Below, one piece after another: positions 42,022 through 46,644 of a stretch of DNA of 64,000 bases. The DNA comes from a bacterium (GTDB lineage: Bacteria; Orphanbacterota; Orphanbacteria; Orphanbacterales; Orphanbacteraceae). The translations under genes were made by a program, and so were the position numbers. How positions within the stretch are numbered: the first letter of the stretch is position 1; each line of letters begins with the position of its first letter. Where the stretch lies: positions 1 to 64,000 of the forward strand of contig JALGYY010000043.1 of assembly GCA_025782575.1 (NCBI GenBank), read 5' to 3'. The notes under the pieces were generated by a model, which made no database searches, was not told the DNA's origin, and saw nothing but the letters and a program-made list of their open reading frames with translations.

Positions 42022-42207
42022 CCACCTATTCTCCATGAGAGAGGCTGTTTTGTCACCCCCCTGCGTCACCCGGGGCCCGGCCCATCAGGATACCGGCGAG
42101 AGAGGAGGCGGATTCCTGCTTGACTCCCCCCCGCCCGATCGCGCATTCTAAAAAAGTCAGGCGGGTTCCCGGAAGGAACCTCATCATTGAACCGTGCGAG
42201 GTTTGCC

Positions 42208-42879
42208 ATGAATCACACGATCCGCTACACCGCAGGCGCGCTCGTCCTCCTGTTGATGGCCGGCTGTACCGGCAAGCAGAAGATTATCGATCAACAGATT
42301 CTAGACATTTCTGTTCTCGAGGGTGAAGTCCGCTCTCTCGAGCAGCAGATATCCAAAGAGCGGGGAATCAACGAACGTCTGAATAACCAGCTCCGGACGG
42401 TGCTGGCCGAGTATGAAGAGAACGAACAGGTCCTTCTGGACAAAGTGGCCGGTCGGTCGATCGTCACGGTCTCCGACGGCGCCCTCTTCCAATCGGGCGG
42501 GACGACACTGACGTCCAGCGGAAGAGACATCCTCGATCGAATCGCAGGTGTATTCGACACCTATCCCGATCGGGAGCTACTGGTTGAAGGACATACGGAT
42601 AACGTTCAGATCAAGCAGGAGTTTCAGTCCAAGTTTCGATCCAACTGGGAACTCTCCTCGGCTCGCGCTCACTCGGCGCTCCACTACCTGAACGACAGAT
42701 ACGAGGTTCTTCCGAGCCGCATGGCGGCAGTCGGCTACGGCGAGCACCGACCGATCGCGGATAATTCGACGCCGGACGGACGGGCAGCGAACAGGCGCGT
42801 GGTGATCGTCATCGGACCGGTACTCGAAGGCATGGAGAGCGTCCGGCAGGCTGTTCCGATGGATCAGCCCATCCCATAG
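42208..42879 (+). CDS. OmpA-family lipoprotein (Pal/MotB-like)
   Basis: A 223-residue outer-membrane-type lipoprotein: a signal peptide with lipobox LLMAGC, a coiled-coil stretch (about 25-80, ISVLEGEVRSLEQQISKERG), and a C-terminal OmpA peptidoglycan-binding domain. The latter shows LFQSGGTTLTSSGRDILDRIA, LLVEGHTDNVQIK, LSSARAHSALHYLNDR and GYGEHRPIADN…NRRVVI, with the Asp and Arg that hold diaminopimelate. It links the envelope to the cell wall. The ATG at 42208 has GAGG seven bases upstream. A strong terminator follows. Confidence 0.9.
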   Translation: MNHTIRYTAGALVLLLMAGCTGKQKIIDQQILDISVLEGEVRSLEQQISKERGINERLNNQLRTVLAEYEENEQVLLDKVAGRSIVTVSDGALFQSGGTTLTSSGRDILDRIAGVFDTYPDRELLVEGHTDNVQIKQEFQSKFRSNWELSSARAHSALHYLNDRYEVLPSRMAAVGYGEHRPIADNSTPDGRAANRRVVIVIGPVLEGMESVRQAVPMDQPIP

Positions 42880-42990: not shown

Positions 42991-43548
42991 GTGAGCAGAA
43001 ACATAGAGGTAAAGGCGCGATTGCGGGATCTGGCCGCAGCGGAGGAGACGGCGCAAAAACTGGGCGCCCACGGTCCCACCCGGCTCGATCAGGTGGATAT
43101 TTTTTACGCATCCAGGAGAGGCCGGCTCAAACTTCGGTGCGTGAATGATCGGTGGGAACTGATCGGATATCGCCGGGATGATCGTCCGGAGGCGCGGGGG
43201 AGCGACTATTCCCTTCTCCCCCTTTCCGACGCTGACCCGCTGGACACCATACTGAGAGACGCCCTGGGCAGACGAGGTGAGGTGAGAAAGAGGCGCATTC
43301 TCTATCTCCATGACAATGTAAGAATCCATCTCGACCAGGTGGAGAATCTGGGTACGTTCCTGGAATTGGAGGCCATCGTAGACGATCAGTGCGATGACGA
43401 GACGGCACTGGCCAAGATCAATCGCTTGTTACGGTCGTTCGGGATCTCTTCGGACAAGATCGAAAGCGGTTCCTATGCGGACCTTCTTGGATTCGGCGAT
43501 TCTACAGAAGACGGGCCCGTGAGCAGCGACTCGCACAGGAAGGATTAG
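42991..43548 (+). CDS. CYTH-domain protein (class IV adenylate cyclase/thiamine-triphosphatase-like)
   Basis: A 185-residue CYTH protein. The signature NIEVKARL (E-x-E-x-K type) opens the domain. LDQVDIFYASRRGRLKLR, VRIHLDQVENLGTFLELEAIV and KIESGSYADLL follow, supplying the charged residues that line the beta-tunnel and bind triphosphate and metal. Members hydrolyse inorganic triphosphate or make cAMP; the actual reaction is open. The GTG at 42991, eight bases after GGAG, is preferred to starts inside the terminator. It is followed after 1 bp by the selenoprotein candidate, so the two are co-transcribed. Confidence 0.85.
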   Translation: MSRNIEVKARLRDLAAAEETAQKLGAHGPTRLDQVDIFYASRRGRLKLRCVNDRWELIGYRRDDRPEARGSDYSLLPLSDADPLDTILRDALGRRGEVRKRRILYLHDNVRIHLDQVENLGTFLELEAIVDDQCDDETALAKINRLLRSFGISSDKIESGSYADLLGFGDSTEDGPVSSDSHRKD

Positions 43549-43549
43549 A

Positions 43550-44089
43550 ATGGCTTACATTCCTTATGTCAAACTCGACCAGCTCCCCGAAGAGTTCCGT
43601 CTGAAAGATGAAGACAATATTATTCGTGTGCAACGCGTTCACCCGCGAGCCATGCGGGATCACTACCAGATGTACGTCACTCTCATGCGGAGACCGGGTC
43701 CGCTGGCTCGAAGCCGGAGAGAGATGATCGCAGTTCTTGTATCCGCGCTGAACGAGTGCCGTTACTGACTCGTCCATCACGGGGCGGGACTCCGTGCGGC
43801 ACTGGAAAGCGAGGGGGAAAAGAATTCGGCTGAGATAGCTCGCCTCATCGGAGAAGACTACACTCGAGCGCCGATTACTCCTGCAGACAGGGCCATGCTG
43901 GATTACAGTCGCCTCCTCACTCTCTCACCAGGCAAGGTCAGAGAAAACGATGTAGCCCTTCTACGTGACGCCGGTTTCGATGATCGGGCGATATATGACA
44001 TCTGTGCGATCAACGGCTATTTTGCGATGGTCAATCGAATCGCGGACGGTCTCGGCATCGAGCTGGAAGACCTCTTAGAGAAGGACTGA
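43550..44089 (+). CDS. AhpD-like selenoprotein candidate (in-frame TGA = Sec73)
   Basis: One continuous frame of 180 codons interrupted only by TGA at 43766-43768. Read as selenocysteine it gives a 179-residue carboxymuconolactone-decarboxylase/AhpD-fold protein. Its active-site region is REMIAVLVSALNECRY-U-LVHHG, matching the AhpD motif E-x11-C-x2-C-x3-H with the second Cys replaced by Sec (C70, U73, H77). Homology on both sides is unbroken (downstream: LDYSRLLTLSPGKVRENDVALLRDAGFDDRAIYD). A hairpin suited to a bacterial SECIS follows the TGA. It is probably a thiol/selenol peroxidase or peroxiredoxin partner. If Sec is not inserted the product would be a useless 72-residue peptide. The ATG is preceded by AGGAAGGA. 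Confidence 0.85.
43778..43796 (+). promoter_or_regulatory. Candidate bacterial SECIS hairpin
   Basis: CACGGGG (43778-43784) pairs with CTCCGTG (43790-43796; one G·U pair) around a CGGGA loop. Sixteen nucleotides lie between the UGA and the loop, and G is among the first two loop bases. This falls within the usual bacterial SECIS layout (small apical loop with an early G, about 16-37 nt from UGA). It is inside the coding sequence, as expected for bacteria. Confidence 0.6.
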
Positions 44090-44097
44090 ATTTTGAG

Positions 44098-45861
44098 ATG
44101 ATTGCCCATTCGCTCCGGCTCGTTCCCTTTCTCATTTTCTTCGTCTGTGCCTCCCGATCGGCGGCGGACGCGATTCCGGTCTTCATCGACGGAGTCCATT
44201 CGGACTGGGCCGGTGTGAACCCGATGGCGACCGATCCGTCCGGGGACGGCGGAAATTCAGGTATCGACTTCATAAGCCTTTCCATCGCCAATGACGGACC
44301 GTCTCTTTTCATTCGTCTTCAGCTCCGGTTCCCGACTATCCTGCAGGAAGATAATGCCATCGCCCTCTATATCGATACCGATGACAACGCATCGACCGGC
44401 CTTCCCGTTTCAGGAATCGGCGCCGATCTCATCTGGCGGTTCGGCGGTCGAAATGGTGTCCGAAACGGGATCGGCACAGGCTGGGCGGGAGTCGGCATCG
44501 TTGCCTCCCCTTCCTGGGAATCAATCGATTTCGAGATTTCCATCCCACGTACGGCCGGACCGGGGGAAACGGCTCTCTTCACCTCCCCCACAATTCGTCT
44601 TCTCTTTCGTGATGAGATCCAGGGTGGAGATGCGATTCCGGCAGTCACACCGGAACCCTATGCTTTCGATGATTCCGATCCCCTTTTCCCCGAACCGATC
44701 TCTCCCGGCCGATCGCCCAGGCCGGCCTATCGAATCATGACTCACAATGTGGAACGTGACGGCCTCTGGAGGGACTCGAATGAACATACGCGGCTTGTCC
44801 AGGCGATTCAGCCCGACATTATCGCGTATCAGGAAATCTACAATCATGGCGCGGGGGAGATGAAAGCCTGGGTGGAGGCGCGGCTTCCGGGCGACTGGAA
44901 TATCGCGTACGACGGCAGGCAACTTCATACCGTATCCCGATGGCCGATCACGCAGTCGTGGTCGACGGCGGAAGGGCGGGCCTACGCGACACTGATCGAT
45001 ATCCCCGATGAATTCGGCAGCGATCTCCTGCTGATCAATCTCCACTTCCACTGCTGTCGAAGGGATCTCGACCGTCAACGGGAGATCGATGACCTGATGC
45101 GGTTCATTCGTGGCGCCCGGTTACCGGACGGGGGACTGGGCCTGCAACAGGGAACAGCCATCGTCATTCTGGGGGACACCAACATGTACGGTGACGCCCA
45201 TCAGGTCGAGACTCTTCTCACAGGAAACATCTTCGACAACAGTCGTTACGGCGGAGATTTCAGGCCCGACTGGGACGAGACGGATCTCGAGGCTCTCTAT
45301 TCACCGCACCTGAACTCGCGCCACTCCTTCACGTGGTACAACGAAGGGAGTGCCTACAGTCCGAGTCACATCGATAGAATCGCCTACACGGGAAGCGTAA
45401 TCGAACCGGTGAAGAGCTTCGCTCTCCACACTCCTCATGTCGATCCGGACACGCTGTTCGCCTATGGACTGGAAGAGTCTGATTCCAAAATCGCGTCCGA
45501 TCATGTTCCTCATGTGGTCGACTTCGTTCCAGCCTCGGCAGACACATCGTCAGAGGGTGAAGAAGTGGAGATAGAGGAAGCCGGCGAGGTACCGTCCCCC
45601 TCTATTGATCTGCGAATCATTCCGAACCCCATGAATCCGTCGACATCGATCGAGTTCACAATTGAACTGTCGGGACCTGTTTCTCTGACCATCTACGATT
45701 CTGCCGGCCGCCGGGTGGCGACGCTATTCGATGAAACACTGATTGCGGACAGTTATTCAGTCCGCTGGGCTCCAAACGGAGATATCGCCTCGGGGATTTA
45801 CTTCGCCCATTTGAAAACGGCCGGTCGGGATGAAACAAAAAAACTGATCCTGCTACGATGA
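44098..45861 (+). CDS. Secreted endonuclease/exonuclease/phosphatase-fold protein with sorting tail
   Basis: A 587-residue exported protein: a signal peptide (to about residue 24, SAADA); an N-terminal beta-sandwich with calcium-like acidic loops (about 25-205); and an EEP-superfamily catalytic domain (about 210-480). The EEP motifs are RIMTHNVERDG, IIAYQEIYNHG (catalytic Glu), LLLINLHFHCC, IVILGDTNMYGD (Asp and Asn) and SDHVPHVVDF (Asp-His). It probably hydrolyses nucleic acid or phosphodiesters outside the cell. The C-terminus IPNPMNPSTSIEFTIEL … ASGIYFAHLKTAG is a type-A sorting-like tail. It starts 8 bp after the selenoprotein candidate and ends convergent with a methyltransferase gene, overlapping by 9 bp. 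Confidence 0.87.
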   Translation: MIAHSLRLVPFLIFFVCASRSAADAIPVFIDGVHSDWAGVNPMATDPSGDGGNSGIDFISLSIANDGPSLFIRLQLRFPTILQEDNAIALYIDTDDNASTGLPVSGIGADLIWRFGGRNGVRNGIGTGWAGVGIVASPSWESIDFEISIPRTAGPGETALFTSPTIRLLFRDEIQGGDAIPAVTPEPYAFDDSDPLFPEPISPGRSPRPAYRIMTHNVERDGLWRDSNEHTRLVQAIQPDIIAYQEIYNHGAGEMKAWVEARLPGDWNIAYDGRQLHTVSRWPITQSWSTAEGRAYATLIDIPDEFGSDLLLINLHFHCCRRDLDRQREIDDLMRFIRGARLPDGGLGLQQGTAIVILGDTNMYGDAHQVETLLTGNIFDNSRYGGDFRPDWDETDLEALYSPHLNSRHSFTWYNEGSAYSPSHIDRIAYTGSVIEPVKSFALHTPHVDPDTLFAYGLEESDSKIASDHVPHVVDFVPASADTSSEGEEVEIEEAGEVPSPSIDLRIIPNPMNPSTSIEFTIELSGPVSLTIYDSAGRRVATLFDETLIADSYSVRWAPNGDIASGIYFAHLKTAGRDETKKLILLR

Positions 45862-46644
45862 TCGAGGATTGCGGGTTTCGGATTGATCAGCGAGTTCGAT
45901 TCGCTCGGCCCGGAGAATCACAGGGGAGCCGAAGCGGCCCGTGAGACCGGTCCCCGCAAGCAGCCCTTCAGCAAGGCTCGATAACCTGCGTGAACCCATG
46001 ATCCGGTGAATCACCATGGGCATCAGATATTCCCCGCACTTATCCGTAACCGAGAAATCCGCATGGCCGAACGCATGGCCGATCTCATCGTGGCTGAGCG
46101 GATGCCATGGTCTCGTGTGAGTTTCCAGTCTGTTTTTGGCACGGAAGAGGGATCCTGCAAAGCGCTGAAGCCCTCCGGCGGGAGGATAATCGACGATCAC
46201 GGTTTGCCGCGCCACGCGGGCCAGCTCGGCCACTAATCGGCGCCAATCGGGATAGTGAGTCAATAGACGAAACGCAAGAACCACATCGAATGACCGGTCT
46301 TCAAATGGAAGGGGAACAAGCGGTCCCGCCACAAAACGGAGCCGCCCGGGCCGTGTGAGATCGGTGAGTCGCTCCTCGCAAAGAGGATCACTTCCCAGAA
46401 TCGTAACGGAGTGTCCGTCTCGCTCGAGCGGCCGGGCTAGCTGGCCGTGACCTCCCCCCACGTCCAGAATGGAGAGACCCGTTGTCTCCGGCAGGAAACC
46501 GAGCGCGATCCGCTCCTGGACCTCGAGCATCCATGCTCCGACAGGCCCCTGAAACCGGGTCGCATAACCGGCGGACGCGGTGAACAGATCCGGATCGCCG
46601 GCGGACCGGTCAGATGAAGATTCTAGGGCTGACCCTCTCCTCAT
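45853..46644 (-). CDS. Class I SAM-dependent methyltransferase
   Basis: A 263-residue methyltransferase. Motif I is LSILDVGGGHGQLARPL, motif II VTILGSDPLCEE, and the post-motif region SFDVVLAFRLLTHYPDWRRLV, with VIVDYPPAGGL at motif III. This is a UbiE/type 11-like pattern. The acceptor is unknown; the C-terminal half may contact a lipid or small molecule. It diverges from the DTHFHLYP protein gene, and their 5' ends nearly touch. Confidence 0.85.
   Translation of the reverse strand: MRRGSALESSSDRSAGDPDLFTASAGYATRFQGPVGAWMLEVQERIALGFLPETTGLSILDVGGGHGQLARPLERDGHSVTILGSDPLCEERLTDLTRPGRLRFVAGPLVPLPFEDRSFDVVLAFRLLTHYPDWRRLVAELARVARQTVIVDYPPAGGLQRFAGSLFRAKNRLETHTRPWHPLSHDEIGHAFGHADFSVTDKCGEYLMPMVIHRIMGSRRLSSLAEGLLAGTGLTGRFGSPVILRAERIELADQSETRNPRSS

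Follow-up and report, generated by a model that had tools for sequence, protein, structure and literature searches.

The DNA analysed here, referred to as the window, is a stretch of 64,000 nucleotides, and within it one reading frame, running from an ATG at position 43550 to position 44089, is interrupted solely by the TGA at 43766-43768, which is codon 73. The active site of the translated product reads E58-x11-C70-R-Y-U73-x3-H77. The coordinates, the motif and the lone TGA, all of which had been given in an initial annotation made from the sequence alone, were reproduced by translation. The features of the locus are as follows.

42187-42879, forward strand: OmpA-family lipoprotein-like gene, next upstream of the CYTH gene and kept in the same two genomes as the latter (G001 and G002)
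42991-43548, forward strand: CYTH-domain gene, with a likely GTG start at 42991, ending 1 nt before the start of the predicted selenoprotein gene
43550-44089, forward strand: AhpD-like (TIGR01926) predicted selenoprotein gene, 179 residues including U73, with its own TGA stop at 44087-44089
43721-43723, forward strand: E58 codon; E58 begins the AhpD-type proton relay and does not vary among 60 homologs
43757-43759, forward strand: C70 codon; C70 opens the CxxU pair and likewise does not vary among the 60 aligned homologs
43766-43768, forward strand: in-frame TGA, codon 73, predicted selenocysteine (Sec) in the second position of CxxU
43778-43780, forward strand: H77 codon, relay His; the SECIS-like hairpin starts with this codon
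43778-43796, forward strand: bSECIS-like hairpin (stem strands CACGGGG and CTCCGTG, loop CGGGA), 7 bp, 5-nt loop with G at loop position 2

The order of the OmpA-like, CYTH and selenoprotein genes is kept in G001 and G002, two genomes of the same family as the host, and co-transcription within this family is plausible. The adjacency to a CYTH gene, pointed out in the initial annotation, was thus confirmed, but its conservation is limited to the host's own family, as CYTH was not found by tblastn (1e-5) at the loci of the other relatives outside it. Downstream, on the forward strand, lies a gene (44098-45861) for a probable secreted protein with a weak match, below the cut-off, to the C-terminal sorting domain PF18962 (E 8.7e-5). 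A relative of this gene adjoins the selenoprotein gene in G001, and in G002 its place is occupied by a relative of the window methyltransferase gene (45853-46644, reverse strand).

In profile searches, the AhpD-like protein scored above the curated cut-off of the peroxidase-related model TIGR01926 (119.3 bits versus 81.8, E 1.5e-34) and also matched the CMD domain PF02627; TIGR01926 was likewise matched by all 60 aligned homologs. The relay pattern E-x11-C-x2-C/U-x3-H is present, and the columns of E58, C70, position 73 and H77 are invariant among these homologs when TGA is read as Cys. The pattern is shared with AhpD of Mycobacterium tuberculosis (TIGR00777), in which the relay consists of Glu118, Cys130, Cys133 and His137 (PMC3141380), corresponding to E58, C70, position 73 and H77, respectively; however, by score the window protein is placed outside this AhpD-proper subfamily (17.3 bits versus a cut-off of 191.95). 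Similarly, NF041238 (AhpD_rel_CFYUT) has an AhpD core with CxxU in common with the window protein, but it is a different, longer family, whose cut-off of 175 bits was not reached (59.3 bits). PA0269-like proteins have a chain topology unlike that of AhpD (PMC3141380).

For the analysis of codon 73, relatives were collected with a query carrying Cys at this position, so the search was not biased towards TGA. In the 131 homologous loci, of which some represent one gene counted as two overlapping loci (112 distinct proteins were left in the tree set), the column holds TGA in 111, TGC in 15 and TGT in five cases, and no other codon. The alignment suggested in the initial annotation therefore yielded only Cys codons or TGA, and the 20 loci with a Cys codon provide the homologous Cys column by which an in-frame TGA of a bacterial selenoprotein gene is recognized. 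In the TGA loci, Sec always takes the second position of the motif and the first one is Cys in nearly all. TGA was found at codon 73 in all of the 80 best relatives from named genomes (genome_contigs collection), which span Gemmatimonadota, Acidobacteriota, Chloroflexota, Calditrichota, Planctomycetota, Armatimonadota, Latescibacterota, Krumholzibacteriota and other lineages. Closest to home, a gene of 60% identity is present in both G001 and G002, and there too codon 73 is TGA. A tree of the Sec and Cys forms needs six label changes; given the uncertainty of the root and of several long branches, no direction of the Sec/Cys change is claimed.

The coding sequence, for which a continuation of 106 codons past the TGA had been proposed, is indeed conserved in the relatives on that side. 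On both sides of the TGA, pN (0.23-0.33) is lower than pS (0.59-0.85; NG86), which indicates that purifying selection on the protein continues past the TGA. Given the retention of the TGA at codon 73 and the constraint past it, it is very unlikely that the TGA stems from a sequencing error or that the gene is in decay. In particular, the misreading of a TGC or TGT codon, named earlier as a possible refutation, was rejected, as relatives, including those of the same family, have TGA at the same codon and constraint is seen on both of its sides. Genetic-code reassignment was also rejected, because TGA terminates many other ORFs of the window; as stated in the initial annotation, it is an ordinary stop elsewhere, ending 14 of the 27 frames of 300 or more codons. 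When the window was searched by codon usage for further genes with TGA read-through, the known gene was outranked by many frames, and the scan was uninformative.

The hairpin at 43778-43796 begins 9 nt after the TGA, with a spacing of 16 nt from the TGA to the loop, exactly as described before (7 bp, early loop G). Its computed energy is -9.0 kcal/mol. According to the published bSECIS model, the loop should have 3-9 nt with a G in its first two positions, the stem 4-16 bp, the spacing should be 16-37 nt and the energy at most -7.5 kcal/mol (PMC13188914); the window hairpin (7 bp, CGGGA, 16 nt, -9.0 kcal/mol) agrees with the model in every respect. An equal or better model-fitting hairpin accompanies 2.6% of all 2000 window TGAs (both strands, any frame). 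Alternative folds of the region compete with the hairpin, and it had no match to a SECIS family in Rfam. Taken singly, it is only suggestive. Against synonymous-codon shuffles of this gene alone it was not significant (p about 0.12), and it was therefore judged on the whole family instead.

The family-wide pattern is strong and convincing. A hairpin of -5 kcal/mol or better occurs in 98 of 111 TGA genes versus one of 20 Cys genes, and at 19.5% of the other positions within the TGA genes; at -7.5 kcal/mol, the corresponding values are 69 of 111, none of 20, and 8.7% of other codons of the TGA genes. For the covariation analysis, 55 Sec homologs, mostly picked from those with a hairpin near 16-17 nt, were aligned without gaps. 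In this set, both sides were changed in 15 stem cells, compared with 3.6 in shuffles, and 82.6% of the cells were paired (30-55% when the stem was slid). These figures overstate independence, as the homologs share ancestry and register played a part in their selection. The clearest covarying column pair (17-27) has G-C in 38 sequences and C-G in 13. In two clades (L025, L031, L105-L109 and L112; L068, L076 and L080-L082), the best hairpin is found farther from the TGA, at about 24 or about 28 nt. A consistent hairpin of the 16-17 nt type was not seen in a Planctomycetota clade of Sec homologs, and some Chloroflexota likewise differ.

Searching the host genome (4.88 Mb, 95% complete) for selA, selB, selD and tRNA-Sec, as had been advised, brought to light all four components of the selenocysteine pathway that had been postulated for this organism: SelA (524 bits), a full-length SelB (379 bits), SelD (379 bits) and one tRNA-Sec, which scored 72.7 bits, over the Rfam cut-off, and was called by ARAGORN too. 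The selD gene (L018, G000:C46:271946-272869) is itself interrupted by a TGA, at AG-U-AAK; a simple model-fitting hairpin was not found there by our script. In addition, a TGA interrupts at least four other genes of the host genome that belong to known kinds of selenoprotein. Together with the machinery, these genes show that Sec is in general use in this organism.

Outside the window, a deiodinase-like gene (L160, G000:C19:1960-2400; PF00837, E 3.6e-33) has a TGA in FGSYTUPPF and a hairpin of -10.1 kcal/mol that fits the bSECIS model. A peroxiredoxin gene (L158, G000:C46:149435-149821), located outside the window on the same contig, encodes TPGUT; the script did not find a simple bSECIS-model hairpin within 60 nt. 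Model-fitting hairpins are present in a thioredoxin-like gene with TGA in WUSGC (L159, G000:C13:433942-434301) and in the gene of a small CMD protein with TGA in CHPU (L161, G000:C17:5626-5835).

As for the relatives, 12 genomes carrying the TGA form were sampled, and SelB was detected at E<=1e-60 in 11 of them. Genome G067, with TGA copies (L035 and L145), has a strong selA, and a SelB match at E<=1e-60 was not found in it, the gene being either fragmented, diverged or absent from the assembled sequence. SelB is also present in four of five Cys-form genomes and hence separates Sec from Cys genomes poorly.

Although TGA is the commonest stop among the long frames of the window, it is very improbable that it acts as a real stop (or represents a sequencing error) in a once Cys-encoding gene, leaving a pseudogene or a truncated protein, since 111 homologous loci over many phyla share it at codon 73, purifying selection continues after it, the genome contains Sec machinery and the hairpin covaries. 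Judging from the sequence evidence, the window gene very probably encodes a selenoprotein belonging to the TIGR01926 branch within the AhpD family, with U73 specified by the in-frame TGA. The machinery genes, the conserved TGA and the conserved hairpin suggest that SelB with Sec-tRNA would recognize the hairpin after the UGA and that Sec would be inserted at position 73.

A structural model obtained with AlphaFold2 from 60 homologs reached a pLDDT of 95 (folding without an alignment gave a pLDDT of only 44 and a useless model). In it, the AhpD helix-turn-helix is made up of helices 54-67 and 71-87, and the turn holds C70 and position 73; in the predicted fold, C70 and U73 would open the second helix, beside the helix bearing E58 and near H77. 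The closest fold match in the PDB was 2prr (TM 0.86, 32% identity). It belongs, with 3c1l, 2pfx, 6k40 and 2oyo, to the peroxidase-related Cys forms, which have the fold in common with the window protein (TM about 0.8-0.87). Two of these structures, aligned residue by residue, have CxxC where the window protein has CxxU; the Cys-form proteins have Cys at position 73 and need no SECIS. The debrominase Bmp8 and sestrin-2 were more distant fold matches, and a sestrin was also among the sequence matches.

By analogy with AhpD, we consider it moderately likely that the protein runs a peroxide cycle. The likely substrates would be organic hydroperoxides, reduced through a Se-S cycle, in which the E58/H77 relay may keep U73 as a selenolate, a U73-C70 selenenylsulfide would arise, and a cellular dithiol (a lipoyl or thioredoxin-type protein) would reset it. 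The protein may serve in peroxide defence or redox signalling, as put forward in the initial annotation.

It is possible, if doubtful, that C70 attacks the peroxide and U73 resolves it or accepts electrons, in which case Sec would speed reductive recycling, not the attack. This is brought to mind by sestrin-2, a human relative of AhpD found among both the sequence and the fold matches, which retains just the first of the two Cys residues (Cys125, aligned with C70) and relies on it alone for catalysis (PMC4674687). The constant second position of Sec in the TGA loci, with Cys nearly always in the first, speaks against it. In Sec peroxidases, selenium usually occupies the attacking position, which would argue for U73 here.

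That the natural reaction is another thiol/selenol redox step, e.g., recycling of a partner peroxiredoxin or reductive dehalogenation, appears unlikely. Such steps have precedents in Bmp8, which shares the AhpD fold, and in AhpD itself, which acts as an adaptor for AhpC (PMC3141380), and the host has many AhpC/TSA proteins, one of them with TPGU; nevertheless, the nearest solved relatives are annotated as peroxidase-related or antioxidant, and the adjoining genes include no dehalogenation or peroxiredoxin gene.

The gene is a new example of an already listed selenoprotein family. An AhpD-like protein with TIGR01926 and CxxU appears in table 1 of PMC13188914, which cites the Sargasso Sea study of 2005; the latter described 27 genes for AhpD-like proteins with CXXU, for one of which a SECIS was shown (PMC1088965), in line with the statement of the initial annotation that such selenoproteins are known from environmental sequences, and hundreds more came from the Global Ocean Sampling study (PMC2398784). 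The window gene shares with the listed family the TIGR01926 model, the CxxU motif and the bSECIS past the TGA; there is no defining difference, and the window copy has a CYTH neighbour.

The window gene leaves the knowledge of selenoproteins unchanged in kind. Ordinary gene callers would truncate this gene, and the analysis confirms its full frame. One bacterial genome gains by it a Sec gene with good support, together with a small selenoproteome. The alignment of the family shows SECIS pairing and amino-acid constraint overlapping in the same codons. We tentatively propose that the subfamily is near-obligately Sec-containing over many uncultured phyla, that its SECIS is locked in the codons of the active-site helix, and that the hairpin register has apparently moved in two side clades (spacing of about 24 or 28 nt from the TGA to the loop); if true, this would provide a natural series on the shift of SECIS position inside one protein family.
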